Below, one piece after another: positions 8,397 to 61,672 of a stretch of DNA of 64,000 nt. Every line of letters begins with the position of its first letter. Position 1 is the stretch's first letter. The notes beneath the pieces were generated by a model. The model did no database searches and was not told the DNA's origin. It saw only the letters and a program-made list of their open reading frames with translations. Both the position numbers and the translations under genes were made by a program. This DNA comes from Thermococcus barossii (GTDB taxonomy: Archaea > Methanobacteriota_B > Thermococci > Thermococcales > Thermococcaceae), in NCBI RefSeq assembly GCF_002214465.1, contig NZ_CP015101.1, positions 1,185,013 to 1,249,012 on the forward strand, read 5' to 3'.

Positions 8397-8425
8397 TAAC
8401 ACCACCACTCGTAATAACGAAAGAA

Positions 8426-8435
8426 CCTTAAAAGG
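8426..8435. promoter_or_regulatory. Near-symmetric TATA element between divergent genes
   Basis: CCTTAAAAGG sits about 34 nt from the start at 8396 and about 32 nt from the start at 8463. It is the only TATA-like element in the 66-bp gap, so it probably serves both genes. Confidence 0.5.
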
Positions 8436-8462
8436 TTTCCCTCAAGCCGTACCGGTGATGGC

Positions 8463-9275: not shown

Positions 9276-9310
9276 ATACCGTACATGTCCCCCACGGAAG
9301 AAGTTGAAAC

Positions 9311-41488: not shown

Positions 41489-42808
41489 TTAAAGTCCCTT
41501 CGGAACCACCGCTATGATTAAAGAGTTCACGTTCGTCCCCGTCGGCCCAGTCTTTAGGAGTGCACCGGCCTTTTCGAGGGCACGGTAGGCGTCGTGCCTT
41601 CTGAGGGCTTCCTCCACGTCCACCCCCATCTTTTCAAGAAGCCCAAGCGTTCTCCCGTCCACTATTCCCCCAGCGGCATCCGTTGGCCCGTCGGTCCCGT
41701 CGGTATCAACGGCAAGGACAACTGCATCCAGGCCCGCTATCTTTCTCGCTATGCTGAGCGTGAATTCCTGGTTCGGTCCGCCGAGACCGGCTTCACCCTC
41801 TATCGTCACCGTCCACTCTCCGCCGGCTATCAGGACGGCAGGCCTTGGAACCGGTCGGTCGTATCTGGCAATCTCCTGGACTATTGAGCCTATAGCCAGG
41901 GCTATCTCCCTCGCTTCGCCCTCCAAGGTGGTTGTGAGAAGCAGGGGGTTGTAGCCGAGTTCCTTCGCCTTTGCCAGGGCGGATTCGCAGGCCAATGTAT
42001 TGCTTCCGACCACGAAGTTGTGGACGTTGGGCAAATCCTCCTTGAGGGTCTCCTCGACTTTCCCTTCAAGGCCAAGCTCGACGTGCCTCCTGACGCTCTC
42101 CGGAAGCTTATCCCAGACACCGTAGAGCCTCAGGATTCTATGGGCGTCTTTAAAGGTCGTGGGGTCTTTAACGGTCGGGCCGGAGGCGATGGCTTCAAGG
42201 GGGTCACCAACCACGTCCGAGAGGATTAGGCTCACAACCGTCTCTCTAACGCGTTTGGCCAGCTTACCGCCCTTGACGGCCGAGATGTGCTTCCTCACGG
42301 TGTTTATCTCGTATATTCTCGCCCCGCTCCTCAGGAGGAGTTCGTTGGTTCGGATTTTATCGTCGAGGCTTATCCCCCTCTCAGGGAGGAGGAAAAGGGA
42401 ACTTCCACCACCAGAGATGAGAACCAGAAGGACGTCGTTCTCCCCGACTTTCTCCGCGAGCTCAAGGCCGAACCTTCCGCCCAGGAGGGAGTTTTCGTCT
42501 GGAACGGGGTGTCCCGCCTCAATGACCCTCAGCCTTTCTGTTTTCGGGCACTCCTCCGCATAACCGTACTTGGTAACGATTACTCCCTCCTCTATCCTCT
42601 CCCCGAGGATTTCAGCGGCGGCCCTTGCCATGGCACAGGCGGCCTTGCCGAAGGCGAGGAGATAAACCCTTCCCGAGAGGGGGAGCTCCTTCCCAGAAAC
42701 CATCAGACGATCTCCGGCAACCCTGAGGCTCCTCCTCACTGCAGCGTAGGGGTCGGCACTCTCGATGGCCGCGTTCATAATCTCCAGTGCAGCGGTTCTG
42801 GCGTCCAT
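41489..42808 (-). CDS. Glycerate 2-kinase (MOFRL family)
   Basis: A 439-residue glycerate kinase of the archaeal type, making 2-phosphoglycerate from D-glycerate and ATP. Signatures include LAFGKAACAMA (about 52-62), VIEAGHPVPDENSL, LVLISGGGSSLF, INTVRKHISAVKGG, LSDVVGDPLEAIASGPTV and the MOFRL block AVDTDGTDGPTDAAGGIVDG. ATG 42808 follows GGGGGAGGGTG. It starts 20 nt after the TrmB-type gene on the same strand, so it is the last gene of the ABC importer operon, which suggests that the imported compound yields glycerate (inference). Confidence 0.92.
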   Translation of the reverse strand: MDARTAALEIMNAAIESADPYAAVRRSLRVAGDRLMVSGKELPLSGRVYLLAFGKAACAMARAAAEILGERIEEGVIVTKYGYAEECPKTERLRVIEAGHPVPDENSLLGGRFGLELAEKVGENDVLLVLISGGGSSLFLLPERGISLDDKIRTNELLLRSGARIYEINTVRKHISAVKGGKLAKRVRETVVSLILSDVVGDPLEAIASGPTVKDPTTFKDAHRILRLYGVWDKLPESVRRHVELGLEGKVEETLKEDLPNVHNFVVGSNTLACESALAKAKELGYNPLLLTTTLEGEAREIALAIGSIVQEIARYDRPVPRPAVLIAGGEWTVTIEGEAGLGGPNQEFTLSIARKIAGLDAVVLAVDTDGTDGPTDAAGGIVDGRTLGLLEKMGVDVEEALRRHDAYRALEKAGALLKTGPTGTNVNSLIIAVVPKGL

Positions 42809-42828
42809 CACCCTCCCCCGTCAAAAGC

Positions 42829-43845
42829 TCACTCAAAGAGGATAATTCTCTCGGCCTCTATGTCCTCCAGAGAGGCGTTCCAGCCACCCACGACGTGCCT
42901 CTCACCATCCTGAGTTTCGACCGTTATGTTCGATATGACCTTGCCCTCGTCCTCGTAGAACTCCACGACCCTGCCCACTATGTGAACTGGCTCTCCGGAG
43001 CGGACGAAGCGGCCGAAGACTTCAACCTTCGCATTCCGAATGTTAAAGCGTCGCAGGTCGGAAACAAGCTCTCTTATGTGTATGTACTCCCTCGGGAGCT
43101 TCAGTGCCCTTTCTTCCCTGTAAACAACCCTGCCTGTGGGCCACAGGGCATGGTAGAAGTAGCGGTCAAGCATGAAGAGAAGGTTGTTGTCCTGGATTAT
43201 AAGGCCGTAACCGTGAAGGGAACTACCGCCAGTCAGGGCCTCGTATGGGAGGTATACCCCCATATCCCTGTCCTGGATTATGATTATTGGATCGGGCACG
43301 TCTCTGATACGTATCTCGTTGGCCACGGGAGGAACGTCGTTTTCGCCGTAAACAAAAAGGTTTATGCGGACGTTGTTCTCCTTCTTCTTCCCCAAATCCA
43401 TCTCCAGCTTCTTCAGAAACTCCCTGGGGACTGCGATGCTCATGTGAAATCTGGTGTTCTTTATTGCCTTCCTGACGTAATCTTCCAGGGTTATGCGGCT
43501 TTTGACGACTATTACACTGCCTATCTCGCTATGAGGCGTGTAAATTTCCTCCAAGGCAGATTTGAGGGCCTCTATCCTCTCATTGTACCGCTGCTTGATG
43601 GCATTCATGACGCTCTCGGGATTGAGGGGAATGACTCGCTTGGGTCTGCCCTGACTGGTAGTGACGAATCCCTTGGCCATGAGCGTTCTTATCACGTCGT
43701 ATATCCTGGGCTGGGGAACCTTTGAGAGCGTCGCGAGTTCACCAGCCGTCAGAGGTCCGCTCCTGATAAGTGCAAGGTACGCCCTAACCTCATACTCGTT
43801 GAGTCCAAACTCGCGGAGGAGGGACTTTATTTCCTTCTCATCCAT
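42829..43845 (-). CDS. TrmB-family sugar-responsive transcription regulator
   Basis: A 338-residue regulator with an N-terminal winged helix (LREFGLNEYEVRAYLALIRS ... KVPQPRIYDVIRTLMAKGFV), a short coiled-coil dimer helix (about 85-110) and a C-terminal sugar-binding domain of the TrmB type (about 115-338). TrmB proteins repress sugar importer genes until a sugar binds. Its place between the transporter ATPase and the glycerate kinase makes it the best candidate to bind the AACCACT-N3-AGTGGTT palindrome found at 48028 and 50142. Confidence 0.85.
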   Translation of the reverse strand: MDEKEIKSLLREFGLNEYEVRAYLALIRSGPLTAGELATLSKVPQPRIYDVIRTLMAKGFVTTSQGRPKRVIPLNPESVMNAIKQRYNERIEALKSALEEIYTPHSEIGSVIVVKSRITLEDYVRKAIKNTRFHMSIAVPREFLKKLEMDLGKKKENNVRINLFVYGENDVPPVANEIRIRDVPDPIIIIQDRDMGVYLPYEALTGGSSLHGYGLIIQDNNLLFMLDRYFYHALWPTGRVVYREERALKLPREYIHIRELVSDLRRFNIRNAKVEVFGRFVRSGEPVHIVGRVVEFYEDEGKVISNITVETQDGERHVVGGWNASLEDIEAERIILFE

Positions 43846-43854
43846 AGGCAGGCC

Positions 43855-44958
43855 TCAGATTATCGCTTTCTCCGTGTCTCTGTCGAAGATATGGATGTTG
43901 TCAAGGTCTATCTCTATTTTAATCTTTTCTCCAACGGGGAGGGGTATGTGCCCGGGCAGCTTTACCTTAATGATGTTCTCCCCGACCTTGGCGTGAACTA
44001 TCGTATCGGTTCCAAGGGCTTCGATGAAATCGACCGTTCCCTCTATCTCCGCCGTTCTGGTTACGTGCTCAAGAGTTGAGACCCCCTTAACGGTCATGTG
44101 CTCCGGCCTTATGCCGAGCAGGACGTCCTTCCCAATGTGGTCGAGAAGAAGCTCCCTGAAGTCCTCCGGTAGGTGGATGGTAAACCCGTCGCCCTCAAGG
44201 GCCAGCCCCTCCTTCTCGGTGACCGTGGCGCTTAGGATGTTCATCTCAGGGGCACCTATGAAGGTTGCAACGAAGAGGGAGTTGGGCTTCAGATAAACCT
44301 CGGTGGGCGGACCCACCTGGAGGAGTCGGCCCCTGTTCATTACGGCTATCCTGTCGCCCATTGTCATTGCCTCGACCTGGTCGTGGGTAACGTATATGGT
44401 CGTGACCTTGAGCTTGGTCTGGAGCTTCTTTATCTCAGCCCTCATCGCAACCCTGAGCTTCGCATCGAGGTTGCTCAGCGGTTCGTCCATGAGCAGGACG
44501 TCAGGTTCAACGACTATCGCCCTGGCTACCGCCACGCGCTGTCTCTGGCCGCCGCTCAGCTGTCCTGGGTAACGGTCGAGGAGGTTCTCTATCTGGAGCA
44601 GCTCTGCCGCCCACTTGACGCGCCTCTTTATCTCGTCCTCTGGATACTTCTTTACCCTGAGGGGGAAGGCTATGTTGTCGAAGACCTTCATATGCGGCCA
44701 GACGGCATAGCTCTGGAAGACCATCGAGATGTTCCTGTCCTTGGGGGGCAGATACGTGACGTCCCTGTCACCGAAGTATATCCTTCCCTCGCTGGGGGTC
44801 TCAAGACCGGAAATCATCCTCAGCGTCGTAGTCTTTCCACAGCCACTCGGCCCGAGAAGGACGAGGAACTCTCCATCCTTTATCGTGAGATTCAGATCCT
44901 TAACCGCCTCAAAGTCTCCAAACCTCTTGGTTATCCCCTCAAGCTTGACCTCAACCAT
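43855..44958 (-). CDS. Sugar ABC transporter ATPase (MalK/UgpC family)
   Basis: A 367-residue ATPase. Walker A GPSGCGKT (36-43), Q-loop MVFQSYAVWPH, signature LSGGQRQR (about 133), Walker B VLLMDEPLSNLD and switch His in VTHDQVEA are all intact. The C-terminal TOBE/OB part (about 240-367: GIRPEHMTV, DFIEALGTDTIVHAKVG) is that of MalK-type proteins. It is 9 nt after the permease gene and 9 nt before the regulator, within the same operon. Confidence 0.9.
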   Translation of the reverse strand: MVEVKLEGITKRFGDFEAVKDLNLTIKDGEFLVLLGPSGCGKTTTLRMISGLETPSEGRIYFGDRDVTYLPPKDRNISMVFQSYAVWPHMKVFDNIAFPLRVKKYPEDEIKRRVKWAAELLQIENLLDRYPGQLSGGQRQRVAVARAIVVEPDVLLMDEPLSNLDAKLRVAMRAEIKKLQTKLKVTTIYVTHDQVEAMTMGDRIAVMNRGRLLQVGPPTEVYLKPNSLFVATFIGAPEMNILSATVTEKEGLALEGDGFTIHLPEDFRELLLDHIGKDVLLGIRPEHMTVKGVSTLEHVTRTAEIEGTVDFIEALGTDTIVHAKVGENIIKVKLPGHIPLPVGEKIKIEIDLDNIHIFDRDTEKAII

Positions 44959-44967
44959 GGTAACACC

Positions 44968-45801
44968 TCACTTGAGCGTTATACCCCACATCGTGACCAG
45001 ATACCTCCTGGCGAAAAGGATGAAGAGCATCGCCGGGAGAGTCATTATGAATGCCGCCGCGAACTTGTAGTAATCCGGCGCAGCACCGCCGCTGGAGCCG
45101 GCCATTATCGAGAGTATCTGCGCGGGCAGGGTTCTGTTGTTTAGGGTTAGAATCGAGGCAACGAATACCTCGTTCCAGCTCATAACGAAGGTAAACATAG
45201 CTGCGGCGGCCAGCCCCGGAAGGGCCAGGGGAAGGGTTATCTTACGGAAGGAGCCGAAGCGGGTCAGACCAAAAACCATCGCGGCCTCTTCATACTCCTT
45301 GGACACCCCGGCGAAGATACTCGACGTTATGAGAACGACGAAGGGGAGCGCCATCGCCGTGTGGGCCAGCGCCACTCCGATGAGGGTATCGGCGAGATGG
45401 AGGTCTATGTAGAGGACCAGGAGCGGTATTGCCATGACCGGAATCGGAAACATCCTGAGGGCAACTATGGAGAGCTTTATGTGGTCCTTGCCCGGGAACA
45501 CGTACTTGGCTATCGAGTATCCTGCCGGAACGCCGAGGATGAAGCTTATGATGATGGTTAACACGGCCACGATGACGCTGTTCTTTATTCCGTCCCAAGC
45601 GCCCAGGGTAAAGAGTATCGTGTGGACGTACTCGCTCGTAAAGCTCGTCGGGATTATCTTGGTCGGGTCGTAGTAGTCCGCCTTGCTTGTGAAGGCGTAG
45701 AGGAAGGAGATGATTATCGGAATCACTATCCAGACCGCGGCCGTGAAAACTGCCGTGTAGAACCCTACCTTTTTGAGGGCGTATTTGGTTTCGTCGTTCA
45801 T
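44968..45801 (-). CDS. Sugar ABC transporter permease (MalG-like)
   Basis: A 277-residue permease with six likely helices and the EAA loop EYEEAAMVFGLTRFGSFRKI (about residues 180-200), which docks on the ATPase. The MalG-type C-terminus is present. The start overlaps the stop of the partner permease (ATGA), so translation is coupled. Confidence 0.9.
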   Translation of the reverse strand: MNDETKYALKKVGFYTAVFTAAVWIVIPIIISFLYAFTSKADYYDPTKIIPTSFTSEYVHTILFTLGAWDGIKNSVIVAVLTIIISFILGVPAGYSIAKYVFPGKDHIKLSIVALRMFPIPVMAIPLLVLYIDLHLADTLIGVALAHTAMALPFVVLITSSIFAGVSKEYEEAAMVFGLTRFGSFRKITLPLALPGLAAAAMFTFVMSWNEVFVASILTLNNRTLPAQILSIMAGSSGGAAPDYYKFAAAFIMTLPAMLFILFARRYLVTMWGITLK

Positions 45802-46649
45802 TCTCCCACCTCCAGGTACTCAGCGCGGAGGAACTTGATGTACAGCGCACCGAGCAGGATGGAGAGACCGGCTATCACGAGGGCGTATACCGATGCCACA
45901 CCGGCATCCTTTATCTCCGTGAGCTGGTAGTAACCTTCACCGGCGAGAACCGGGATGTCTCTGCCGGCCAGTATCCAGACGATACCGAAGATCTGCATCG
46001 CGAAGAGCGTCCTTATTATGAGGGCGCTCTGTATGCTGGGCTTTAAGAGCGGAAGAACGATGCGCCTGAGCCTTGTCCAGTAGCTCGCCCCAAAGACCTC
46101 TGCAGCCTCAATGTACTCCTTGCTTATCATCTGCAGACCGGCGAGGATTATCACAAAGACTATCGCCGTGGAGCGCCACAGTTCGGCTATGACTATCGCG
46201 AAGAACTCCCTCATGCGGTATTCGTAGCCGAATACGTATATCGGCTGGCTTATCACCCCCAGGTTCATGAGGAGCTTGTTTATGAAACCATAGGGGGAAA
46301 GCATTGAGTACCAGATCAAACCCGCCGCCACATCACTTATGGTGAGGGGGATTATAAGGGCATAGAGGGCGGCGTCCTTGCCCTTGAAAACACGGTTCAT
46401 GAGGAGGGCGAGAACAACGGCAAGGGCAACCTGAGTGGGGACGATAATGCCAGCAAGAAGGATCGTGTATTTAAACGCGCTCCAGAAGTAGTAATCGCTA
46501 AAGGTCCTACGCCAGACCTCCAAAGAGAGCGCCCCGTTCTGGGTGAAGGCCAGGTAGAGAGCCTGAACGAGGGGATATCCAACGAAAAACAGCAGGTACA
46601 AGAAAGCCGGCAAAATTAAAAGATAAGGAACGAGAGAGCGCCGTTCCAT
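45798..46649 (-). CDS. Sugar ABC transporter permease (MalF-like)
   Basis: A 283-residue permease starting MERRSLVPYLLILPAFLYLL, with GGAGGAGGT before the ATG. Six helices and the EAA loop EYIEAAEVFGASYWTRLRRI (about 195-215) are evident. Second gene of the importer operon, 13 nt after the binding-protein gene. Confidence 0.9.
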   Translation of the reverse strand: MERRSLVPYLLILPAFLYLLFFVGYPLVQALYLAFTQNGALSLEVWRRTFSDYYFWSAFKYTILLAGIIVPTQVALAVVLALLMNRVFKGKDAALYALIIPLTISDVAAGLIWYSMLSPYGFINKLLMNLGVISQPIYVFGYEYRMREFFAIVIAELWRSTAIVFVIILAGLQMISKEYIEAAEVFGASYWTRLRRIVLPLLKPSIQSALIIRTLFAMQIFGIVWILAGRDIPVLAGEGYYQLTEIKDAGVASVYALVIAGLSILLGALYIKFLRAEYLEVGE

Positions 46650-46662
46650 GGGACCTCCTCCT

Positions 46663-47952
46663 TCACGGCACCGGCACTCCAACGTCCTCGAAGAGCTTTA
46701 CAAGGTCGGGCTTGATCTCCTTGGTGACCGTCGCTGGATCCTCGTCGTTGAGAACTATCCTCTCGAAGGCCTGCTTGTAGTACTCCTTGAACTGGCCTCC
46801 CTTGTCTCCGAGGTTTGGTATCATGACAACGAGGGCATCCTTGGTGCTGGCCTGGGCCTGGACACCCTCAGCGAGTATCTTCAGCGGCCCCTCAGGCAGC
46901 TTTCCGCTGGCCTCTTCAACGGTCGGGAAGAAACCGACCTTCTCCAGAACCTTGACCTGGGTATCTGGCTTGGTCAGGTAGTCTATAAGCTTCCATGCCT
47001 CATCCTTGTGCGGTGCTCCCTTCGGTATGGCAAGGCCGGCGAGAACGACAATGAATCCCCTGCCCTTCGGTCCCCTCGGAACCGGAACAACGACGAACTG
47101 GTCTGGCTTGGTTTCGATGGCGTTCTTAATCCTTGCGGTGTGGTCCCAGGCTATGAGAACTTCACCCTTCAGGAGCGGGTCAGCCATGGCATCCCAGGTT
47201 GTGCTGGACGGGTGCACGTAGGGCCAGAGTTCCTTGAGGTAGTTCCACATCTCGACTGCCTCTGGACTGTCGAACTCCTTCGCCTGATAGCCGGTGTAGC
47301 TCGGATAGATGTATCCGTGGAGGAACCTGACGAAGAGCCCCTTCGGCCCGGCCGGGAAGCCGAGCTCGGGCTGTCCCTTGGCCTCTTTGAGGTTCTTGGC
47401 CCACTGGAGAAGGGCGTCGTAGGTCCACTTTTCGGTGCCCTTCATAACGTCCTCCTCGGTAAGCCCTTTCGGAAGGTACTGGAAGGCCTCCTTGTTAACG
47501 ACCATAACGTAGGTGGCGCTCATCCAAGGAACGTATGCCTTCTGGCCGCGGATGTAGGAGTACTGCTCAAAGGTGCTGATGAAGGTTCTTCCTTCAAGCT
47601 TGGGCATCGTGCTGAGATCCTCCAGCCAGCCCTTTGAGGCCATGTAGTCCATACCACCGTGGAGGTCGCCTATAACGTCGATGGTGACCTTTCCCGTCTG
47701 CATCTCGCCCTCAAGCCTCGTAACCATGTCCGTATAGGAAATTGGGACAAAGTTAACCTCGATGTTTGTCTCCGATGTAAAGCCCTTCAGAAGGTCCTCC
47801 TGGACGAAGGCCCTCTCCTCGGGCGGGTTCAGCTGGGTTGACAGAAACGTCACTGTTACTTTCTCTTCCCCTCCTGGGGAGATACAGCCACTGGACACTA
47901 CGGCGAACAACACAACAGCCGCCAACAGAACACCAAACAATCTCCTAATCAT
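46663..47952 (-). CDS. Sugar-binding lipoprotein of ABC transporter (MalE-like, family 1)
   Basis: 429 residues. Lipobox VVSSGC with Cys23. The mature part has the family-1 solute-binding pattern: VTVTFLSTQLNPPEE, IDVIGDLHGGMDYMAS, the hinge segment GEVLIAWDHTARIKN, and GLAIPKGAPHKDEAWKLIDY. It should bind an oligosaccharide or glycoside outside the cell; which one cannot be read from the sequence. It is the first gene of the operon; a minus-strand TATA (CTTATATATG, about 48005-48014) and an upstream palindrome at 48028-48044 form its promoter. Confidence 0.88.
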   Translation of the reverse strand: MIRRLFGVLLAAVVLFAVVSSGCISPGGEEKVTVTFLSTQLNPPEERAFVQEDLLKGFTSETNIEVNFVPISYTDMVTRLEGEMQTGKVTIDVIGDLHGGMDYMASKGWLEDLSTMPKLEGRTFISTFEQYSYIRGQKAYVPWMSATYVMVVNKEAFQYLPKGLTEEDVMKGTEKWTYDALLQWAKNLKEAKGQPELGFPAGPKGLFVRFLHGYIYPSYTGYQAKEFDSPEAVEMWNYLKELWPYVHPSSTTWDAMADPLLKGEVLIAWDHTARIKNAIETKPDQFVVVPVPRGPKGRGFIVVLAGLAIPKGAPHKDEAWKLIDYLTKPDTQVKVLEKVGFFPTVEEASGKLPEGPLKILAEGVQAQASTKDALVVMIPNLGDKGGQFKEYYKQAFERIVLNDEDPATVTKEIKPDLVKLFEDVGVPVP

Positions 47953-48003: not shown

Positions 48004-48014
48004 AACATATATAA
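48004..48014 (-). promoter_or_regulatory. TATA box of the system-1 importer operon
   Basis: On the minus strand CTTATATATGT lies about 55 nt before the binding-protein ATG at 47952, directly downstream of the palindrome at 48028-48044. Confidence 0.6.
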
Positions 48015-48027
48015 GATTTGTGTTTAG

Positions 48028-48044
48028 AACCACTAAAAGTGGTT
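48028..48044. promoter_or_regulatory. Palindromic operator, copy 1
   Basis: AACCACTAAAAGTGGTT is a perfect 7-3-7 inverted repeat. It lies just upstream of the TATA box of the importer operon, a place where activators or repressors both act. A near copy is at 50142-50158. Confidence 0.7.
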
Positions 48045-48071
48045 GTATTACAAAAAAGTAAAAGTTTGGAA

Positions 48072-49085
48072 TTAAAGTCTAAGCCTCACGGTTTTTCCCT
48101 TTCTGGACGATTCATAGGCCGCCAGGATTATCGCCAGGTTTTTCTTCGCATCCTCGCCCGTTATGGGAACCTTTTCATCCTTCAAAACCGCCCTGGTGAA
48201 GGAACTCACTATTCCCCTCACATCGGGTCTGTCCCAGTATATCTTCTCTGCCCTGTCCTGATAGACGGTAAAGTCAGGGTATGCCGTCCTCACGTCGAGG
48301 AATCCCTCCCTTCCGACGAGGTAGTATTTTATCTCGATGCCGTAGGAGTAGCCCTTTGGATTGCCCCAGCCGGCAGTCAGAACCGCCAGAACGCCTTTTC
48401 TGAACTCAAGAACGGCGGTGCCTATATCGTCCACCGGGAAGCCGTATATCTTGGCACCTATGTCCGCGTAGACCTTTCTGGGGAGGTCCCCAGTGAGCCA
48501 GAGGAGGGAGTCAACCCCATGGGGGGCGGTGTCCATGAAACCCCCGCCTCCGGACTTTCTTGCGTCTAAGAACCAACCCATGTCAAGCCCCTGGAGGAAT
48601 ATCGGCGGTTTCACGTTCTCGGAGATGGTCTGGATGTACTCAATGGGGCCTATCTCACCGCTATCAATCATCTCCTTCGCCTTCACGAGGGGCTCAGTGA
48701 ACCTGGGATTGAATGGGAGCATGAGCTTTACCCCGGCCCTTTTGGCGGCCCTTATGACCTCATCCGCGTCCCTGAGGTTCAGGGCTATGGGCTTCTCAAG
48801 TAGTATGTGCTTGCCCTCTTCAGCGGCCCTGACGGCTATCTCCCTGTGCCTGTATGTCTCTATTGCAATGTAAACCGCCTCGACGTTCTCATCCCTGAGG
48901 AGTGCCTCGTAGTTCCTGTAGAACTTCGCTCCGTACTTCTTCGCCTCGGCACGTGCAACGTCCGAGTTGGAGCCGTCGCCGGATATCGCCACGAGCTTCG
49001 TCTGCCTGCCTCCCGCAATGGTGGAGGCAAAGCGAAGGGCGTGGGGATGGGCGTAGCTTATTATCCCGAAGTTGAGCTTCTTCAT
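48072..49085 (-). CDS. Gfo/Idh/MocA-family oxidoreductase
   Basis: A 337-residue NAD(P)-dependent sugar dehydrogenase-like protein. The N-terminal Rossmann part reads KLNFGIISYAHPHALRFAST, where the usual GxGxxG is replaced by a weaker SYAHPHA turn; EKPIALNLRDADEVI (about residues 93-107) is the family motif with catalytic Lys, and the DTAPHGVDSLLWL block carries the second catalytic His. Substrate unknown: a polyol, glycoside or amino sugar. Overlaps the end of its upstream homolog by 4 nt. Confidence 0.85.
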   Translation of the reverse strand: MKKLNFGIISYAHPHALRFASTIAGGRQTKLVAISGDGSNSDVARAEAKKYGAKFYRNYEALLRDENVEAVYIAIETYRHREIAVRAAEEGKHILLEKPIALNLRDADEVIRAAKRAGVKLMLPFNPRFTEPLVKAKEMIDSGEIGPIEYIQTISENVKPPIFLQGLDMGWFLDARKSGGGGFMDTAPHGVDSLLWLTGDLPRKVYADIGAKIYGFPVDDIGTAVLEFRKGVLAVLTAGWGNPKGYSYGIEIKYYLVGREGFLDVRTAYPDFTVYQDRAEKIYWDRPDVRGIVSSFTRAVLKDEKVPITGEDAKKNLAIILAAYESSRKGKTVRLRL

Positions 49086-50089
49086 ACCTCGACCACCTCC
49101 CCCTCGCGGGCACTCTCCTTCGCCCTCTCTGCAATCTTCAGGGCGATCAGGGCATCCTCGGCGGTGACCGCCGGTTCCTCTTTACCCTTGATGCAATTGA
49201 AGAAGTGCCTCAGTTCCCTCTCGAAGGCGTCTGGGAAGGTTGAAAGGAGCGGTGAGAAGCGCGGCATCTCGAAGTTTGCCTTGGCGACACCGACCACGGG
49301 TGTATCCAGCGGGGTGTAGCGTATTCTGCCGTTCTTTCCAATGATGTCGACGTGATGGTAGAAGACGCCATACCGTGAGGGATACGGATACGCCCAGCTC
49401 ACCTCCGCTATGCCAGTCTTTCCACCCTCGAACTTTATCATCATCATAAAATGGTCAAACGTTCCATTGGCCCTTGCCTCCTCCTTGATGGATTTCCCAA
49501 CGGCGTATACAGAGACGGGTTCGCTCTCAAAGAACCATCTAAGAAAGTCCGTGACGTGGACTCCAAGGTCAACGGCGACGCCGCCGCTCCTGTTCTCGTC
49601 CCAGTACCAGTAATCCCTGGGGAAGGGCAGGTTCTGAACCTCGGCCTTTCTGATGTGCATCGGCAGGATGTTGCGCTTCTTTATGACCTCCTTCATCTGC
49701 ATCCATCTCTTGTCAAACCGCCTCACGTGGCCAACGAAGAGGTGAAGGTCTTCCCTTTCGGCGGTTTTTATCATCCTCTCTCCCTCTTCAACGGTGAGAG
49801 CTATCGGTTTCTCAACTATAACGTGCTTTCCGGCCTTGAGAGCCTCAATGGCGAGTTCTGCGTGGGTGTATGTTGGGGTCAGAATCTCAACAACGTCGGT
49901 CTCGGCATCCAGAAACTCGTCGAGGCTCGTGAACGCCTTGGCTCGAAACTCCTTTGCACCCTCGCGTGCCCGTTTCGGGTCTATGTCCATGCAGGCGACG
50001 ACCCTGATGCCCTCGATTCCCCTGAGGGCCCTCTTGTGGGCAAGGTTGAATATGTTCCCACAGCCTATCACCCCGACCTTCAGCTCCAT
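49082..50089 (-). CDS. Gfo/Idh/MocA-family oxidoreductase
   Basis: A 335-residue homolog of the next gene, with intact dinucleotide motif VGVIGCGNIFNLAH, the catalytic-Lys motif EKPIALTVEEGERMI and AVDLGVHVTDFLRWF. ATG 50089 follows GGGGGATC. The pair may act together or in sequence on the same sugar or polyol. Its promoter has TATA GATTATATAC (minus strand, about 50120-50129), and the second palindromic operator lies just upstream (50142-50158). Confidence 0.87.
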   Translation of the reverse strand: MELKVGVIGCGNIFNLAHKRALRGIEGIRVVACMDIDPKRAREGAKEFRAKAFTSLDEFLDAETDVVEILTPTYTHAELAIEALKAGKHVIVEKPIALTVEEGERMIKTAEREDLHLFVGHVRRFDKRWMQMKEVIKKRNILPMHIRKAEVQNLPFPRDYWYWDENRSGGVAVDLGVHVTDFLRWFFESEPVSVYAVGKSIKEEARANGTFDHFMMMIKFEGGKTGIAEVSWAYPYPSRYGVFYHHVDIIGKNGRIRYTPLDTPVVGVAKANFEMPRFSPLLSTFPDAFERELRHFFNCIKGKEEPAVTAEDALIALKIAERAKESAREGEVVEV

Positions 50090-50118
50090 GGGGATCCCCC
50101 AGGGAAGTAGGGGCAAAA

Positions 50119-50129
50119 AGTATATAATC
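50119..50129 (-). promoter_or_regulatory. TATA box of the oxidoreductase pair
   Basis: GGATTATATAC on the minus strand lies about 35 nt before ATG 50089 and 13 nt from the palindrome at 50142-50158, the same order (operator, TATA, gene) as at the importer operon. Confidence 0.55.
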
Positions 50130-50141
50130 CTTTTCAAAATA

Positions 50142-50158
50142 AACCACTTTAAATGGTT
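50142..50158. promoter_or_regulatory. Palindromic operator, copy 2
   Basis: AACCACTTTAAATGGTT has the same 7-3-7 form as copy 1, with one mismatch between the arms. It lies upstream of the TATA of the leftward oxidoreductase pair and only about 23 nt before the ATG of the rightward glycosyltransferase gene, so the bound protein could act on both. Confidence 0.7.
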
Positions 50159-50180
50159 GTAAATTTACGGAGGGAAAGAT

Positions 50181-51323
50181 ATGAGGGTCATCGTTGGAAT
50201 TCCCAGCTACAACAACGCGGAAACAATCTCATTCGTCGTCAAGCAGGCCGCACAGGGGCTAAAGAGGTACTTTGGTGGGGGAATTGTCGTCAACGCCGAC
50301 GGGGGGAGCACGGATGGAACTAGGGAGACCGTTCTGGCGACGAAGGTTCCGGATGGTGTGGAGGTTCACAGCTTCGTCTACCGCTGGCCCATCCCTGGGA
50401 AGGGCAGTGCTATGAAGGAGCTCATGGAGTTCGCCCTCGAAAGATATGCGGACGCCATAGTGTTCGTTGACAGCGACCTGAGGAGCATAACCCCTGAGTG
50501 GATATACCGCTTCGCCAAACCCATCGAGGAGGGCTACGACTTCGTGGCCCCGCTCTACATAAGGCACAAGTGGGATGGAACCATAACCAACAACATCGCC
50601 TACCCAATGACCGCTTCACTCTACGGAAAGAACGTCAGACAGCCGATAGGAGGGGACTTCGGGATAAGCAGGAAGCTCATGGAGGTTTACCTTGAAGACG
50701 AGGAGGTCTGGAAGACCCACGTGGCTCGCTTCGGCGTCGATATATTCCTCACGACAACGGCCATAGCCAGGGGCTTTAAGGTCATCCAGACCGCCCTTGG
50801 AATGAAGATACACGACCCCAAGGATCCGGCCGCATCGCTCGGCCCGATGTTCAACCAGGTTGTAGGAACGCTGTTCATGCTGATGGGGAGGTACGAAAAC
50901 GTCTGGAGGAAGACCCGCTCGATAGAACCCATTCCGGTCTTCGGGGAGCTTGAGAAGGGCGAGCCGGAGCCCGTAAAAGTCACCCTTGAGCTCCTTGAGA
51001 TAAGGGCGAAGGAGCTCTTTGCCCAGCACGAGCCGGTGCTGAGGAGGGCCCTCGATGAGGAGACGCTCAGGGGGGTGACTGAGGCACTCAAGACCTTCGA
51101 GTTCGACGACAGGCTCTGGAGCCACGTCCTCTACGATGGGGCTGTGGCGTACAAGAACGGAATTCTAACCGAGGCCGAGCCCCTGGTACCCCTATACTTT
51201 GCAAAAACGGCGGATTTCATCAAGAGAACGCTGGACATGAGCACTCTTGAGGCCGAAAAACTGATAGAGGAGAGGGCAAAGGTATTCCTTGAGGAGAAGG
51301 ACTACCTCCTGGAGCGCTGGTAG
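50181..51323 (+). CDS. GT-A glycosyltransferase resembling glucosyl/mannosylglycerate synthases
   Basis: 380 residues. A GT-A nucleotide-sugar domain: VGIPSYNNAETI at the start, NADGGSTDGT, then FVDSDLRSITPEWI with the metal-binding DxD (about 95-97). PLYIRHKWDGTITNNIAYPM and QPIGGDFGISRKL, then GVDIFLTTTAIA, form the acceptor side and match the group that includes single-step glucosylglycerate and mannosylglycerate synthases. A compatible-solute role with glycerate as acceptor is inferred and fits the nearby glycerate kinase. GGAGGG precedes the ATG. Its 3' end overlaps the PfkB gene by 22 nt. Confidence 0.75.
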   Translation: MRVIVGIPSYNNAETISFVVKQAAQGLKRYFGGGIVVNADGGSTDGTRETVLATKVPDGVEVHSFVYRWPIPGKGSAMKELMEFALERYADAIVFVDSDLRSITPEWIYRFAKPIEEGYDFVAPLYIRHKWDGTITNNIAYPMTASLYGKNVRQPIGGDFGISRKLMEVYLEDEEVWKTHVARFGVDIFLTTTAIARGFKVIQTALGMKIHDPKDPAASLGPMFNQVVGTLFMLMGRYENVWRKTRSIEPIPVFGELEKGEPEPVKVTLELLEIRAKELFAQHEPVLRRALDEETLRGVTEALKTFEFDDRLWSHVLYDGAVAYKNGILTEAEPLVPLYFAKTADFIKRTLDMSTLEAEKLIEERAKVFLEEKDYLLERW

Positions 51324-52252
51324 AGGTCCCTGACCTCCTTCATCAGGGTTACTTCTTCCATTTTTGGAACGCTCCACGCGCCCCTCAGTGTCGTTGAGAG
51401 CGCCGCAACCAGGTTTGCGAAGCGGCCGATTTTCCTGAGGTGCTCCTCATCGATACCTTCCGCGCCAAGCAAGTTCGAATAGTGAAGACCCGCCAAGAGA
51501 GCGGCGGTGAAGGCATCTCCAGCCCCTGTGGTGTCAACAGGTTCGACCCGGTACGGAGGAATGTGAACCCTAATACTCCCGCTCATCAGCTCGCTGCCCT
51601 TCTCACCCAAAGTCACCGCGAGCAGTTTGAAGTCGAAGTCTTCCACTTCCACTCCATTGCCTTTTAGATACGCCAGCTCCCCGTCGCCGAGCTTAACTAT
51701 ATCCGCCAGCCCGAGGGCCTTCTCAATGTCGCGGAGCATCTTCTCCTCCCGTTCGCGCCAGAGGTCGGGCCTTATATTGACGTCGTAGCTCAGCGGAACC
51801 TTCCCGCTCAGTTCCTCAAGAAGTCCAAAGATGGTAGAGCGTGATGGCTCCCGGGCGAAGAGCACGGTGCCGAAATGAACGGCCTCAACATTCTCAAGAA
51901 GGGACGTCTCCACGTCCCCCGGCTTCAGGTTGAAGTATGCAACGCCGTCGTAGAGAATGAACTCGGGCTTTGCACCGATGAGCTGAACGAAAACAACGCC
52001 GGTGTGCCTCTCTGGATCCCTTGGTATGTAAGTCCTTACCCCCTCATCGCGGAGTCTTTCGAGCAGGAAGTCCCCGAAGGGGTCGTCACCGACCTTGCTC
52101 ACAAGACCGCTTTCAACGCCGAGCCTCGCAAGGCCAACGGCAACGTTTGCCGGAGCACCACCCGGGTGCTTTTCGAAGCTCTTAACCCCCTTCAACGGCC
52201 CCTCCTGGAGGGCTATGAAGTCTATGAGGGTCTCTCCGATGGATACAATCAC
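51302..52252 (-). CDS. PfkB-family carbohydrate kinase
   Basis: A 316-residue ribokinase-type sugar kinase. IVSIGETLIDFIALQEG and the glycine-rich GGAPANVAVGLARLG mark the substrate side; DTTGAGDAFTAALLAGL (about residue 250) carries the catalytic Asp and anion hole. Closest in style to fructokinases, but sugar specificity is not certain. The GTG at 52252 follows GAGGTGG. It is the last gene of the minus-strand transporter operon, 13 nt after the glycosidase gene. Confidence 0.88.
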   Translation of the reverse strand: MIVSIGETLIDFIALQEGPLKGVKSFEKHPGGAPANVAVGLARLGVESGLVSKVGDDPFGDFLLERLRDEGVRTYIPRDPERHTGVVFVQLIGAKPEFILYDGVAYFNLKPGDVETSLLENVEAVHFGTVLFAREPSRSTIFGLLEELSGKVPLSYDVNIRPDLWREREEKMLRDIEKALGLADIVKLGDGELAYLKGNGVEVEDFDFKLLAVTLGEKGSELMSGSIRVHIPPYRVEPVDTTGAGDAFTAALLAGLHYSNLLGAEGIDEEHLRKIGRFANLVAALSTTLRGAWSVPKMEEVTLMKEVRDLYQRSRR

Positions 52253-52265
52253 GGTAACCACCTCA

Positions 52266-53453
52266 CTAAAGGCCGAGCTTTTGCCTGAACTCCGCGTACA
52301 GCCTTACAATGTTGCCTTTGGGGTCTGAGTAGTAGTCCTCAGGCACTTCTACTTCCACGTTTCTCCTTTTAAGTTCGCCCATCCTCTTCCTGAACTCCCT
52401 CATCACAAGTGCGGTCGGCTTTAGGCTTCCATCGCTTCTCAGAAGACCAAAGAACCTCTCGTGAACCGCCCTGTCGAGGGGAGGCCTGTCCCATATGCTC
52501 TCGTGATAGTCGGAGAAGTTCCAGTAGAACGCACCGAGGACACCGAACTCGTAGAGGGCCTTAAGGGTCTCTTCGAGCCACCTCGCGGCGTCCTCCTCCC
52601 CCACCAAGTAGTGTTCGGCCTCGTGCTTGCCAGTCACGGAGCGTATCTTTCTGGTTTCTCCCCGCGTTGTTGGCATTCCAAACTCCTCCATGAGAACATC
52701 CTTTTTCCCCAGTGCCCTGGTCAGCAGGCATGCGAAGGGGACGAAGTACGGATCCAGGGGGTCCGTGAAGTCCGTGTAGACGGAGTACGCGTGCATGCAG
52801 AGGAAATCGTTTCCCTCCGCCACGTCACCCACGCGGAAGTGTTTGTCTCCCTGAATGTCCTCCTGATGAATGCCGAAGGTAACCGGCTTACTGGAACTGG
52901 CTTTCAGGGTCTCATACACAAACCGGACCCATCTTCTCCCCGCCTCGGGAGTGCGGGGAATCCTGACGTTGTCTATCTCATTGGAGATGTCCCATGCGTA
53001 GAGTGCGGGATGGTCGTCGAACTCGGAGGCGACGACCTCAAGGAGCAGTCTCTCCGCCTCTAAAAGGTCAGGCTCCTCATAGATGTCCCTCGCACCGAGG
53101 TCAACAACTCTTCCGTTCGAATACGTCAGGAATCTCTCGTGGGGTTTGTCGGAGAGGGTCCACTCGGGGAGCCAGTTTATTCCGCTCATGTGGCCGATGA
53201 AGAAGGTCGGCATGACCTTCAGTCCGAGATCATGAGCTATGGCCATGACCTTCTCCAGATTTCGAAGGGAGTTCTCATCGATTCTTTCAGGTTCCGGCTG
53301 AAAGTCCTCCCAGAGCAGGAAAATTCTCACGGCGTCAAGGTTGAGGTCCTTTATTACCTGAAATTCCTCACGAACCTCCCACTCCTCGAACTCCTTCCAC
53401 CAGAACATAGCCTTCCTTCTCGGCCAGTAGTTGACACCGAGGATGAACTCCAT
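52266..53453 (-). CDS. Clan GH-A glycoside hydrolase (GH5 mannanase/mannosidase-like)
   Basis: A 395-residue cytoplasmic TIM-barrel glycosidase without signal peptide. It starts FILGVNYWPRRKAMFWWKEF; the acid/base is E159 in AWDISNEID and the nucleophile E247 in VLMEEFGMPT. The overall pattern (VREEFQVIKDLNLDAVRIFL, YWNFSDYHESIW) resembles GH5-type beta-mannanases/mannosidases more than GH1 or GH42, but family assignment is tentative. As it lacks a signal, it would split glycosides after import by the neighbouring ABC transporter. Confidence 0.75.
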   Translation of the reverse strand: MEFILGVNYWPRRKAMFWWKEFEEWEVREEFQVIKDLNLDAVRIFLLWEDFQPEPERIDENSLRNLEKVMAIAHDLGLKVMPTFFIGHMSGINWLPEWTLSDKPHERFLTYSNGRVVDLGARDIYEEPDLLEAERLLLEVVASEFDDHPALYAWDISNEIDNVRIPRTPEAGRRWVRFVYETLKASSSKPVTFGIHQEDIQGDKHFRVGDVAEGNDFLCMHAYSVYTDFTDPLDPYFVPFACLLTRALGKKDVLMEEFGMPTTRGETRKIRSVTGKHEAEHYLVGEEDAARWLEETLKALYEFGVLGAFYWNFSDYHESIWDRPPLDRAVHERFFGLLRSDGSLKPTALVMREFRKRMGELKRRNVEVEVPEDYYSDPKGNIVRLYAEFRQKLGL

Positions 53454-53484
53454 TTTCCTCCCTCCAAAAAAGTTTTGAAAGGGC

Positions 53485-54306
53485 TCAGCCCTTGATTCCG
53501 CCGGACACTCCCCTCATATAGTACTTCTGGAGCACGATGTAGACGGTGATGGGTACGAGTATTGCCAGCACTCCAGCGGCGGTCAGCTGTCCCCAGTTGG
53601 GGTTGTAGCGGCTTATGAACTGGGTGACGCCGGCTGAAACTGGCCACTTCTCCGGTCTCAGGAGGGTTATCGCAAAGAACAGATCCTGCCACACGAAGAT
53701 GAACTGGACCACGGCGACGCTGATAACCGCGGGCATCGCTATGGGGAGTATCACCTTGAAGTATATCCCAACATCGCTGAGGCCGTCTATCCTCGCAGCC
53801 TCTTCATAGTCCTTGGGAATCGACATGAAGAAGTTGCGGAGGAAGAATATCGTCCACGGGAGCGCGAAGGCCGTGTGAACGAGGATTATACCGTAGTACT
53901 GGTCGTACAGATGAAGGTCGCGGAAGAGCCTCAGGAGGGGGACTATGACTGCCTGCTGTGGGACTACCTGGATGGCAACGAGGGTCAGGAAGAGCATCGT
54001 CTTTATCGGGAAGCTGAAGGAAGTGAAGCCGTAGGCTGCCATTCCGGCGATAAGTATCGGAATTACCGTGGCCACAGTGGCTATCAGAATCGAGTTGAGG
54101 ATGTTCTTCCAGAAGCCGGCGTCCCATACACTGACGTAGTTGTCGATGATGAAGTGGGCGTTCCTGAGGTTCCACCAGCCGTTAACTATCTCGTCGAAGG
54201 GCCTAACGGAGGTCATTATCAGTCCCAGGAGGGGTATCAGGAGCATTAGCCCTATGGACCACGCCACGAGGTTTATGGTGACCTTGTATCTCGTGCTTAC
54301 CTTCAT
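53485..54306 (-). CDS. Sugar ABC transporter permease (MalG-like)
   Basis: A 273-residue permease with six predicted helices and the EAA loop DYEEAARIDGLSDVGIYFKV (about residues 185-205). The start overlaps the stop of the MalF-like gene by 4 nt. Third gene of the minus-strand operon of system 2. Confidence 0.9.
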   Translation of the reverse strand: MKVSTRYKVTINLVAWSIGLMLLIPLLGLIMTSVRPFDEIVNGWWNLRNAHFIIDNYVSVWDAGFWKNILNSILIATVATVIPILIAGMAAYGFTSFSFPIKTMLFLTLVAIQVVPQQAVIVPLLRLFRDLHLYDQYYGIILVHTAFALPWTIFFLRNFFMSIPKDYEEAARIDGLSDVGIYFKVILPIAMPAVISVAVVQFIFVWQDLFFAITLLRPEKWPVSAGVTQFISRYNPNWGQLTAAGVLAILVPITVYIVLQKYYMRGVSGGIKG

Positions 54307-55190
54307 GAGCCCACTCCCCTTTCACTTATCATCTTCTTCAGCATCCCTATGGAGAACAGGAACACTGCAACGGTCAGCAAAGTCGCTATCGCGGCGGCAT
54401 ATCCCCACTTGAACATGCGGAATATCTCGTAATACACCATGTAAGCGAGCACCGAGAGGTACATTGGCACAGACTCACCACCGGAGAGGACGTAAACGAG
54501 GTCGAAGACCTTGAGTATGTAGATGGAACTCATTGTAACGACGACTATCAGAGCGGGCTTCAGCAGGGGCAGTATCACGTACCTAAACCGCTGCCAGGGG
54601 TTTGCACCGTCAATGATGGACGCCTCAAGAACCTCGATGTCAAGACCTTCCAGCCCGGCCAGGAACACCGTGGTTGAAAAGCCCTGCCACGCCCATAGGG
54701 AGCCTATTATAACGAAGTATATCGCCGTACTGGGGTCCTGAATCCACGCCCGGGGTTCGATTCCAAAGAAGCTAAGAACATGATTAACGATACCGGCGTT
54801 GGGATCGAGAAGGAGCATCCAGACGATACCGACAACGGTTAGGGGCATCACCATTCCAAGCATAACGAAGCCCCTGAGCAGGTTGCGCCCCACAACCGCA
54901 CTGTTGTGAAGGAGGAGAGCAAAACCAAGGCCGAGCATCGTTACTAAGGGGAGGAAGACTATGAAGATGAATAGATTGTTCTTAACGGACGTCCAGAAGA
55001 GAGGATCTCCCATCATGGTGCGGTAGTTTTCAAGTCCAACGAACTGGGGCTGGGTAAAGCCGTCCCACTTGGTGAACCCCAGGTAGAACGTGTTGAAAAT
55101 CGGGTACAGTATAAAAACTAAAAGGAGGATGAAGGCGGGCATCATCAGGATCAGGAAATCCTTGCTGAGCCAGTCCCTCCTTCCGCCCAT
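54303..55190 (-). CDS. Sugar ABC transporter permease (MalF-like)
   Basis: A 295-residue permease starting MGGRRDWLSKDFLILMMPAF, with GAGGTG before ATG 55190. The EAA loop reads EVLEASIIDGANPWQRFRYV (about residues 195-215). It follows the binding-protein gene after 10 nt; the frame is open upstream to 55235, but that would overlap the binding-protein gene. Confidence 0.9.
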   Translation of the reverse strand: MGGRRDWLSKDFLILMMPAFILLLVFILYPIFNTFYLGFTKWDGFTQPQFVGLENYRTMMGDPLFWTSVKNNLFIFIVFLPLVTMLGLGFALLLHNSAVVGRNLLRGFVMLGMVMPLTVVGIVWMLLLDPNAGIVNHVLSFFGIEPRAWIQDPSTAIYFVIIGSLWAWQGFSTTVFLAGLEGLDIEVLEASIIDGANPWQRFRYVILPLLKPALIVVVTMSSIYILKVFDLVYVLSGGESVPMYLSVLAYMVYYEIFRMFKWGYAAAIATLLTVAVFLFSIGMLKKMISERGVGS

Positions 55191-55200
55191 TTCAGGCACC

Positions 55201-56523
55201 TCATGAGCCGTAGTACTGTTCTGCGTACTGTTCAAGCTCCTGGGCTATCTGCTGGTAGTTGTCCGGGTTGGCCCAGAGCTCGAAGAGCTTGTCCCAGATT
55301 ATCGGCTGGAATCCTGAGGGGGCGTTGTCATCGAGGTCTGGAACCACGGTGTACTTGGCCATCATGTCGATAATCTTCGCGTCAACGGGGTCGTAGGCAC
55401 TCTTGGGAACCTCAAGGTTGGGCGCGAGGTATCCCTTCTGCTCCACCATTATCTTCTGGTATTCCGGACCGGCGAGCCACTTGGCAAGCTCAAAGGCGGC
55501 CTCCTTGTGCGGGGCTCCTTTGGGTATGATGACCCAGTCCCCACCGGCAACTATGGCGAAGTCGGCGTTGGGGTTGATGACGGGGAACGGAATCAGGTCG
55601 TAGTCAGTGCCGGGCTTGTAACCCTGGTTCTGGAGCATGAGGTTTATCCAGTTGCCCATAAAGTACATGGCCACCTCTCCCTGGCCGAGCCTCGTGACTT
55701 GAACTTCCCACTTCTCACCGATGGCAACCTTAGGATCACCGTAGCAGCCCTCCTTAAGAAGGTCGCTGAGCACCTTGAAGGCCTCAAGAACCTGGGGGTC
55801 GGTCCACTTGACCTTGTGGGTCATCAGGTCGTTGTGGAGCTGCGGACCGCCAACCCTGATGAGAACCGCCTCAAAGATGTCGCTCAGAGGCCACTTGTCT
55901 GCGGCACCGCTGGCCATGGGCTGGATTCCGTTCTGCTCAAAGACTTTACATGCGGCCTTGAGGTCGTCAAGGGTCTCGGGCAGCTTCACGTTGTACTTCT
56001 CAAAGTCGTGGACATTGTACCAGATACCTGGCTTGGCCCAGGCCTTTATGGGAACTGCATAATAGGTGTCCCCAACCTTAACCGGCTGAAGAAGGTTCTC
56101 CATAATGTCGCCCTTATAGGAGTCGACGACGGAGTTCATTGGCTCAAGCTGGTTCTTCTGGCCGAGCTCAGTGATGAGTGCAGGCCACGGAAGAATTGCA
56201 ATGTCAAAACCGGGAGAGCCCGTTGCGAGCTCTGTGAGAACGGCATCCCTGAGCTTGGACTGAATCACATACTTTATCTTAACGTTCGGGTGCTCCTGCT
56301 CGTAAACCTTCAGAGCGTTCTGGAAGTTCTCACCCTCAACTCCACCCCACTGGCCGTAAACGACCACCTCAACCGGCTTCTGGGAGGTTGTGGTCGTCTG
56401 TGTGGGGCTGGAAGTTGTTGTCTGCGTCGGGGAGGTTCCCCCTCCTGAAATGCATCCGGAGACAAAGGCGGCTAACAACAGCACGCTCAAAAGCAATGCA
56501 AACCTTTTGGCATGAAACCTCAT
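55201..56523 (-). CDS. Sugar-binding lipoprotein of ABC transporter (MalE-like)
   Basis: 440 residues. Lipobox AAFVSGC with Cys24, then a Thr/Ser/Gln-rich linker (TSPTQTTTSSPTQTTTTSQK), common between the membrane anchor and binding domain in Thermococcales. The domain has VEVVVYGQWGGVEGENFQNA, FDIAILPWPALITELGQ, the hinge EVAMYFMGNWINLML, and WVIIPKGAPHKEAAFELAKW. It is distantly related to maltose/trehalose-binding MalE, but ligand is not certain. GGTG lies 8 nt before ATG 56523. First gene of a five-gene operon. Confidence 0.88.
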   Translation of the reverse strand: MRFHAKRFALLLSVLLLAAFVSGCISGGGTSPTQTTTSSPTQTTTTSQKPVEVVVYGQWGGVEGENFQNALKVYEQEHPNVKIKYVIQSKLRDAVLTELATGSPGFDIAILPWPALITELGQKNQLEPMNSVVDSYKGDIMENLLQPVKVGDTYYAVPIKAWAKPGIWYNVHDFEKYNVKLPETLDDLKAACKVFEQNGIQPMASGAADKWPLSDIFEAVLIRVGGPQLHNDLMTHKVKWTDPQVLEAFKVLSDLLKEGCYGDPKVAIGEKWEVQVTRLGQGEVAMYFMGNWINLMLQNQGYKPGTDYDLIPFPVINPNADFAIVAGGDWVIIPKGAPHKEAAFELAKWLAGPEYQKIMVEQKGYLAPNLEVPKSAYDPVDAKIIDMMAKYTVVPDLDDNAPSGFQPIIWDKLFELWANPDNYQQIAQELEQYAEQYYGS

Positions 56524-56558
56524 AGATAGACACCTCACCAAGGCTGTTCACTAGGGCT

Positions 56559-56575
56559 GTATACTTTTAGTATAT
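56559..56575. promoter_or_regulatory. TrmB-type operator at the malE-like promoter
   Basis: TATACTTTTAGTATA (56560-56574) is a palindrome-like site overlapping the 3' flank of the minus-strand TATA (AAAATATAAATA, about 56575-56586). It contains TACTTT and AGTA, the known TrmB site in the maltose/trehalose genes of T. litoralis and P. furiosus. Binding here would block transcription of the minus operon. Confidence 0.72.
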
Positions 56576-56752
56576 TTATATTTTTCGGAAAACCCCTGTT
56601 AATTTATGTTCATGATTCCCCCAAAAATTTTGGAGAATACCCTGACAAAAAACGTAGAATGTCAAATTTATTTACAAAACGTTCGTTAAAATTCAGGATA
56701 TATTTCAAAAAACTTTTTATATGTGGACGACTAAACATTCCCCGGATATTCA
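56576..56752. other. AT-rich divergent promoter region of system 2
   Basis: About 180 bp, clearly AT-rich relative to the surroundings. It carries the minus TATA near 56575-56586 and a plus-strand TATA (CTTTTTATATG, about 56714-56724) about 60 nt before the treT ATG. No reading frame or RNA gene seen. Confidence 0.6.
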
Positions 56753-56767
56753 TATACTAAAAGTATA
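56753..56767. promoter_or_regulatory. TrmB-type operator at the treT promoter
   Basis: TATACTAAAAGTATA is the exact reverse complement of the site at 56560-56574. It lies about 30 nt downstream of the plus-strand TATA, over or just after the expected transcription start, so a bound repressor would block treT-trmB-malK. Confidence 0.72.
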
Positions 56768-56785
56768 CAAAGGAGGAGCGTTCAC

Positions 56786-58030: not shown

Positions 58031-58032
58031 GT

Positions 58033-59052: not shown

Positions 59053-59061
59053 GGTGATTGT

Positions 59062-61670: not shown

Positions 61671-61672
61671 CC

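Follow-up and report, generated by a model that had tools for sequence, protein, structure and literature searches.

The question raised by this locus is which protein reads a short palindrome, AACCACT-N3-AGTGGTT, that stands in two neighbouring promoters, and with what effect on the genes to either side. The window, i.e. the whole stretch of DNA that was analysed, comprises 64,000 nucleotides of Thermococcus barossii, and coordinates refer to it unless a genome or locus is named. A perfect 7-3-7 copy had been predicted upstream of the TATA box of an importer operon and a near copy between an oxidoreductase pair and a glycosyltransferase gene. Both were recovered, the former without mismatch as putative operator site 1 (AACCACTAAAAGTGGTT, 48028–48044, no strand assigned; extended oriented form TACAACCACTTTTAGTGGTT, 48028–48047, minus strand) and the latter with one mismatch as putative operator site 2 (AACCACTTTAAATGGTT, 50142–50158, no strand assigned; extended oriented form TACAACCATTTAAAGTGGTT, 50142–50161, minus strand). 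Six matches to the palindrome with at most three mismatches were counted in the window, compared with 1.74 expected. When the host genome (1,922,421 bp in one contig) was scanned, sites 1 and 2, which are 2.1 kb apart and both located in promoters, were the only matches with at most one mismatch (chance expectation approximately 0.3), and the remaining two-mismatch matches were inside open reading frames, some of them short. Additional regulon members elsewhere in the host genome were ruled out, as matches with two or more mismatches sit in open reading frames; five outlying one-mismatch palindromes in relatives were also rejected as regulon members, every one of them overlapping open reading frames. 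The sites are thus small in number and local in the genome-wide search, as expected of the small regulon that had been proposed.

The importer operon extends leftward of site 1 and encodes, all on the minus strand, a solute-binding lipoprotein with an oligosaccharide-binding fold (46663–47952), a MalF-like permease (45798–46646, start picked to avoid overlap), a MalG-like permease (44968–45801), a MalK/UgpC-like ATPase (43855–44958), a TrmB-family regulator (42829–43845) and a glycerate 2-kinase homologue (DUF4147/MOFRL, 41489–42811, 570 bits to PH0495). From site 2 the two Gfo/Idh/MocA oxidoreductase genes run leftward as an operon (oxidoreductase 1, inositol 2-dehydrogenase-like, 49082–50089, and oxidoreductase 2, 48072–49085, both minus strand) and the glycosyltransferase gene (50181–51323, plus strand) runs rightward.

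Forty homologous stretches from Thermococcaceae were compared; a search of genome contigs gave eight MAG loci only. Conservation in relatives had been set beforehand as the test that could refute the original prediction, and the palindrome recurred in six genera at both promoters: site 1 in 38 promoter regions that separate the genes for binding protein and second oxidoreductase, and site 2 in 35 promoter regions between the first oxidoreductase gene and the glycosyltransferase gene. The best intergenic match had 0–3 mismatches for site 1 and 1–2 for site 2; less than 1% of shuffled intergenic regions reached three mismatches. An unaltered TATA-proximal half AGTGGTT was seen at 72 of the 73 sites. 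The distal half was variable (AACCACT, AACTACA, AACAACT, AACCATT, AACCATC), with a symmetric change, AACTAC...GTAGTT, in one locus (L105). On the distal side conserved letters extended outward to TAC, giving TACAACCAYT-N3-AGTGGTT, which is matched by both window sites with 0 mismatches; the refined motif was ACAACYAYT-N3-AGTGGTT (scored as NACAACYAYT-N3-AGTGGTT in genome counts). In locus L102 (G076) the second oxidoreductase gene is interrupted by approximately 2 kb (~8205–10179 in the orientation used), probably a mobile element.

The order of operator and TATA box, with its spacing, had been described as alike for both leftward units, and the measured distances agree: the TATA box of the importer operon (CTTATATA, 48008–48015, minus strand) is 12 bp from site 1 and that of the oxidoreductase operon (ATTATATA, 50121–50128, minus strand) is 13 bp from site 2. 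The gap between operator and leftward TATA box was 11–13 bp in 38 of 38 loci for site 1 and 13–15 bp in 35 of 35 for site 2. In addition, site 2 shares sequence with the promoter of the glycosyltransferase gene, which is read rightward. In most loci only 35–43 bp separate the start of the operator from the start codon of this gene, and its TATA box must therefore abut or overlap the operator. Two candidates were found on the plus strand, AAAATAAA (50136–50143), which abuts site 2, and TTTAAATG (50148–50155), which lies inside it; the counterpart in T. barophilus is ATTATAAA.

The TrmB-like gene at 42829–43845 (minus strand) had been named as the natural candidate for binding the palindrome. 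Its product has a winged helix-turn-helix and a Regulator_TrmB sugar-binding domain (PF01978, 76.9 bits, and PF11495, 155.5 bits, both above the gathering cut-off) and scored clearly under the NCBIfam cut-offs of TrmB, TrmBL1 and TrmBL2. The helix residues Tyr50 and Asp51 (Pfu TrmB numbering; RIYD) and the sugar-pocket residues Gly320, Glu326 and Asp327 (same numbering; GGWNASLED aligned to GGMFAVIED of 3QPH) are retained; the roles of these residues in TrmB have been described (PMC4158304). Almost no variation was seen across 38 orthologues in the recognition helix, VPQPR[IV]YD, which corresponds to VPYNRVYD in TrmB and IPHTRVYD in TrmBL1; the difference falls just before the conserved R-x-Y-D. 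Of the 94 family genomes, 45 carry an orthologue with at least 54% identity and one more (G080) has a broken copy; outside the family, within the class, none were found at E ≤ 1e-60. NACAACYAYT-N3-AGTGGTT with at most one mismatch was present in 43 of 45 genomes with the regulator and in 6 of 48 without it (Fisher 1.7e-17), and the exact refined motif in 30 of 45 and 0 of 48, respectively (Fisher 1.6e-13); because the genomes are related these p-values overstate independence, although the losses are scattered. For the initial 17-bp pattern the counts were 40 of 45 and 6 of 48. The only genomes with a regulator and no motif match (G056 and G060) had assembly breaks in the cluster or a locus that was not resolved past it.

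Loss of the regulator was accompanied by loss of the palindrome. In a Pyrococcus-like genus (g3) and in G024 both oxidoreductase genes and the glycosyltransferase gene are present in the same divergent arrangement at 70–79% identity, and neither importer nor regulator was found; the Pyrococcus-like sample comprised eight loci carrying all three genes, the sequence of G010 ending at the promoter. At the divergent promoter of these genomes no palindrome was detected within three mismatches. In G080 the regulator is broken and the palindrome absent, and in G078 importer and site 1 were lost together while regulator, oxidoreductases and site 2 were retained. As the palindrome follows the gene and is lost with it, the comparison supports the TrmB-like protein as the probable reader.

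This regulator is very probably the orthologue of TrmBL5 of T. barophilus, judging by coordinates and gene order, which match TERMP_01835–01840, the locus-tag count leaving one gene over. A putative TrmB-type site, TACT-N6-AGATA, has been reported in T. barophilus at 1,624,822–1,624,836 upstream of TERMP_01840 (PMC10667668). G086 has these letters, without a difference, at exactly that coordinate, which is inside its homologous promoter, and this genome was therefore regarded as that of T. barophilus MP. The palindrome of G086 is at 1,624,854–1,624,870. The published TACT-N6-AGATA differs from the palindrome and was ruled out as its equivalent, since it stands 17 bp away and coincides in part with the TATA region; it corresponds to L093:7697–7711, and the published scan, which used the TrmB and TrmBL1 consensuses, does not list the palindrome. 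TERMP_01835, which adjoins the transporter cluster, was named TrmBL5, with a role called unclear in 2023, and responded only slightly to maltose (PMC10667668). In the literature search TrmBL5 was found in this paper only, and the papers covered by the search assign no operator to it; an unpublished prediction of the motif, of the kind kept in RegPrecise-type databases, is possible.

Taken from sequence evidence, the probability is put at roughly 0.8 that the palindrome is the operator of a TrmBL5-type regulator which would act as an activator leftward and as a repressor rightward and would be switched by a sugar. Binding of TrmBL5 itself is deduced from sequence, and the central GT core of the palindrome is common to TrmB and TrmBL1 sites, so a protein whose gene lies outside the cluster, whether TrmB, TrmBL1 or some unrelated regulator, might read a palindrome that hitch-hikes with the cluster. 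This is improbable: TrmB/TrmBL1-like homologues occur in 94 of 94 genomes and persist where the palindrome is absent, which argues against TrmB and TrmBL1 as its readers, whereas the exact motif was found only alongside the TrmBL5 gene and the palindrome disappears with that gene although other cluster genes remain. The palindrome at 48028 is also a short inverted repeat directly downstream of the oxidoreductase operon ending at 48072 and might act as an RNA hairpin, e.g. as the terminator of that operon, but the second copy stands between two divergent gene starts, where no gene ends, and a third copy, found in relatives, likewise lies between divergent genes. Together with the fixed distance to the leftward TATA box, and with stems of 7 bp around a 3-nt loop with no T tract, this makes a hairpin function very hard to credit.

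For comparison with known operators of the family, the consensus sequences TACT-N3-AGTA (TM) for TrmB and TATCAC-N5-GTGATA (TGM) for TrmBL1 were used (PMC4158304). The palindrome had been described as distinct from TGM and from the site TATACTTTTAGTATA of the other TrmB locus (56560–56574), and sequence comparison confirmed both distinctions. Like a TrmB-type operator it has an ACT-N3-AGT core dyad near BRE/TATA; it departs from the TM consensus TACT-N3-AGTA in having G/C instead of A/T at +5, and TGM had no match in the window within two mismatches. With the TM operator of P. furiosus and T. litoralis the palindrome shares the protein family, a dyad with a 3-bp spacer, the inner half-site ACT-N3-AGT, an importer operon as target and a regulator within the cluster. 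The outer half-site of the TM operator is TAT...ATA, whereas the palindrome has CC/GG (AACC...GGTT); the TM operator overlaps BRE/TATA, whereas the palindrome sits upstream of it; and the recognition-helix residues and the importer of the TM system are not those of the window cluster. The TGM half-site GTG (+3 to +5) of TrmBL1/Tgr coincides with AGTGGTT on the dyad, and the same dual arrangement, in which sites stand either upstream of BRE/TATA for activation or downstream of it for repression, has been described for this regulator, but the outer bases are ATA in TGM and GTT in the palindrome, in which +2 is also fixed, and a global glycolytic regulon contrasts with a local regulon of one cluster. 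When the three operators are aligned by their dyads, the half-site is A-G-T-A-T-A (from +2) for TrmB, G-T-G-A-T-A (from +3) for TrmBL1 and A-G-T-G-G-T-T (from +2) for TrmBL5; all have G at +3 followed by T at +4, and positions +5 to +8 differ. Because the GT core is kept on the dyad, the palindrome is, by its letters, a specificity variant of the family operator and not an unrelated motif, i.e. it adds a new specificity to a kind of operator already known and does not constitute a new kind. The differences between sites at +5 to +8, and between proteins in the two residues before R-x-Y-D, provide a candidate specificity code for the family.

In the proposed mechanism a TrmBL5 dimer would bind TACAACCAYT-N3-AGTGGTT, a site of 17–20 bp. 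In front of the importer operon and of the oxidoreductase operon the operator is 11–15 bp upstream of the TATA box, just past the BRE, and binding would activate transcription; at the divergent glycosyltransferase gene (and, in relatives, at the PfkB gene) it covers the region from TATA box to start, and binding would repress. The switch would be a sugar held in the retained TrmB pocket, a sugar ligand being likely because the three Pfu TrmB pocket residues are kept, and the regulator is probably autoregulated, as its gene lies inside the importer operon. The sign of regulation is taken by analogy from TrmBL1, a paralogue, for which sites downstream of BRE/TATA repressed in 9 of 9 templates in experiments, and sites upstream of BRE/TATA activated two of three in vitro templates, had no effect on one and repressed none (PMC4706686). 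By this position rule the importer operon, including the regulator gene, and the oxidoreductase operon should be activated, and binding of the operator over the glycosyltransferase promoter should repress there. The same two-faced operator geometry recurs in relatives at a second divergent promoter, that of site 3. Tentatively, with a chance somewhat short of even, bound TrmBL5 would be a two-way switch that turns on glycosylglycerate-type uptake and oxidation and turns off the synthase-like glycosyltransferase; if this is true, one palindrome would provide reciprocal control of scavenging and synthesis.

Genomes that lack the regulator keep the glycosyltransferase along with the oxidoreductases, which counts against opposite regulation, since one shared pathway fits this pattern better. 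TrmBL5 on the same operator might accordingly block all units, with the imported sugar releasing it and importer, oxidoreductases and glycosyltransferase being induced jointly; TreT beside the trehalose importer, a locus also present in the window, is a precedent for a glycosyltransferase adjoining an importer. Ligand-released repression is the mode in which TrmB acts on the trehalose/maltose operon (PMC4158304), but the TrmB operator overlaps BRE/TATA, whereas sites 1 and 2 lie 11–15 bp past the TATA box and beyond the BRE, a position from which TrmBL1 activated most in vitro templates and repressed none (PMC4706686). Uniform repression is therefore regarded as possible but rather doubtful. 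The analysis supplies TrmBL5 with a precise predicted operator, with three to four transcription units as its regulon and with a position-based prediction of sign.

The substrate of the cluster is the least secure step. The predicted structure of the glycosyltransferase (mean pLDDT 92) has the full-length mannosylglycerate synthase (MGS) fold, with a Z of 36.0 to mannosylglycerate synthase (residues 3–377, 350 residues, rmsd 2.9) and of 20.8 to GpgS (glucosyl-3-phosphoglycerate synthase), and includes both domains of the MGS fold with the helical C-terminal part (GT78-like). Sequence identity to the Rhodothermus marinus enzyme (PDB 2BO4, 2Y4M) is only 18–20%. Taken with the glycerate kinase homologue that the importer operon encodes, this modelled fold suggests a compound of glycosylglycerate-like type, a class that includes mannosylglycerate, a known osmolyte of Thermococcales. 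A substrate call from the model of the solute-binding protein was dropped, as many oligosaccharide-binding proteins match it at equal Z. The cluster would thus point to an uncharacterised Thermococcus system for uptake and metabolism of a glycosylglycerate-like solute.

Site 3, a palindrome between divergent genes for PfkB and a fucose-isomerase-like protein, was found in 11 sampled relatives (AACCATTGAGAGTGGTT and similar; the variant AACAACTTTTGGTTGTT retains symmetry); on the side of the rightward gene a TATA box again stands ~13 bp beyond the operator. Site 3 is not present in the window, where a GH/importer/TreT/TrmB/MalK island occupies that exact position. The PfkB sugar kinase gene (51302–52261, minus strand), which stands under site 3 in these relatives, has the island upstream here, and its divergent partner in relatives, the gene for the fucose-isomerase-like protein (60192–61670, plus strand), is displaced by the island. 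With the insertion of the island, TrmBL5 control of these two genes appears to have given way to control by TrmB.

The GH/importer/TreT/TrmB/MalK divergon (52266–60180) between these two genes was also found in L073, L075 and L106. Its divergent SBP2/TreT promoter region is flanked by TACT-N3-AGTA TrmB operators at 56562–56572 and 56755–56765, one per gene. Downstream of the fucose-isomerase-like gene, the gene at 61535–63538 encodes a near-identical counterpart of an archaeal glycogen debranching enzyme of solved structure (7VMA); a reading of this gene (~61.5–63.5 kb) as mannosylglycerate hydrolase was ruled out by that near-identity, and for the same reason the gene was left out of the substrate evidence. 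In Pyrococcus-like genomes from which both TrmBL5 and its operator have been lost, a conserved AAAGTGACGGT element was observed upstream of the glycosyltransferase gene (L117, L118, L120 and L121, and partly L122, L124 and L125), possibly a replacement regulator site; in L117 the intergenic region upstream of this gene contains the full AAAGTGAC-G-GTCACTTT palindrome.
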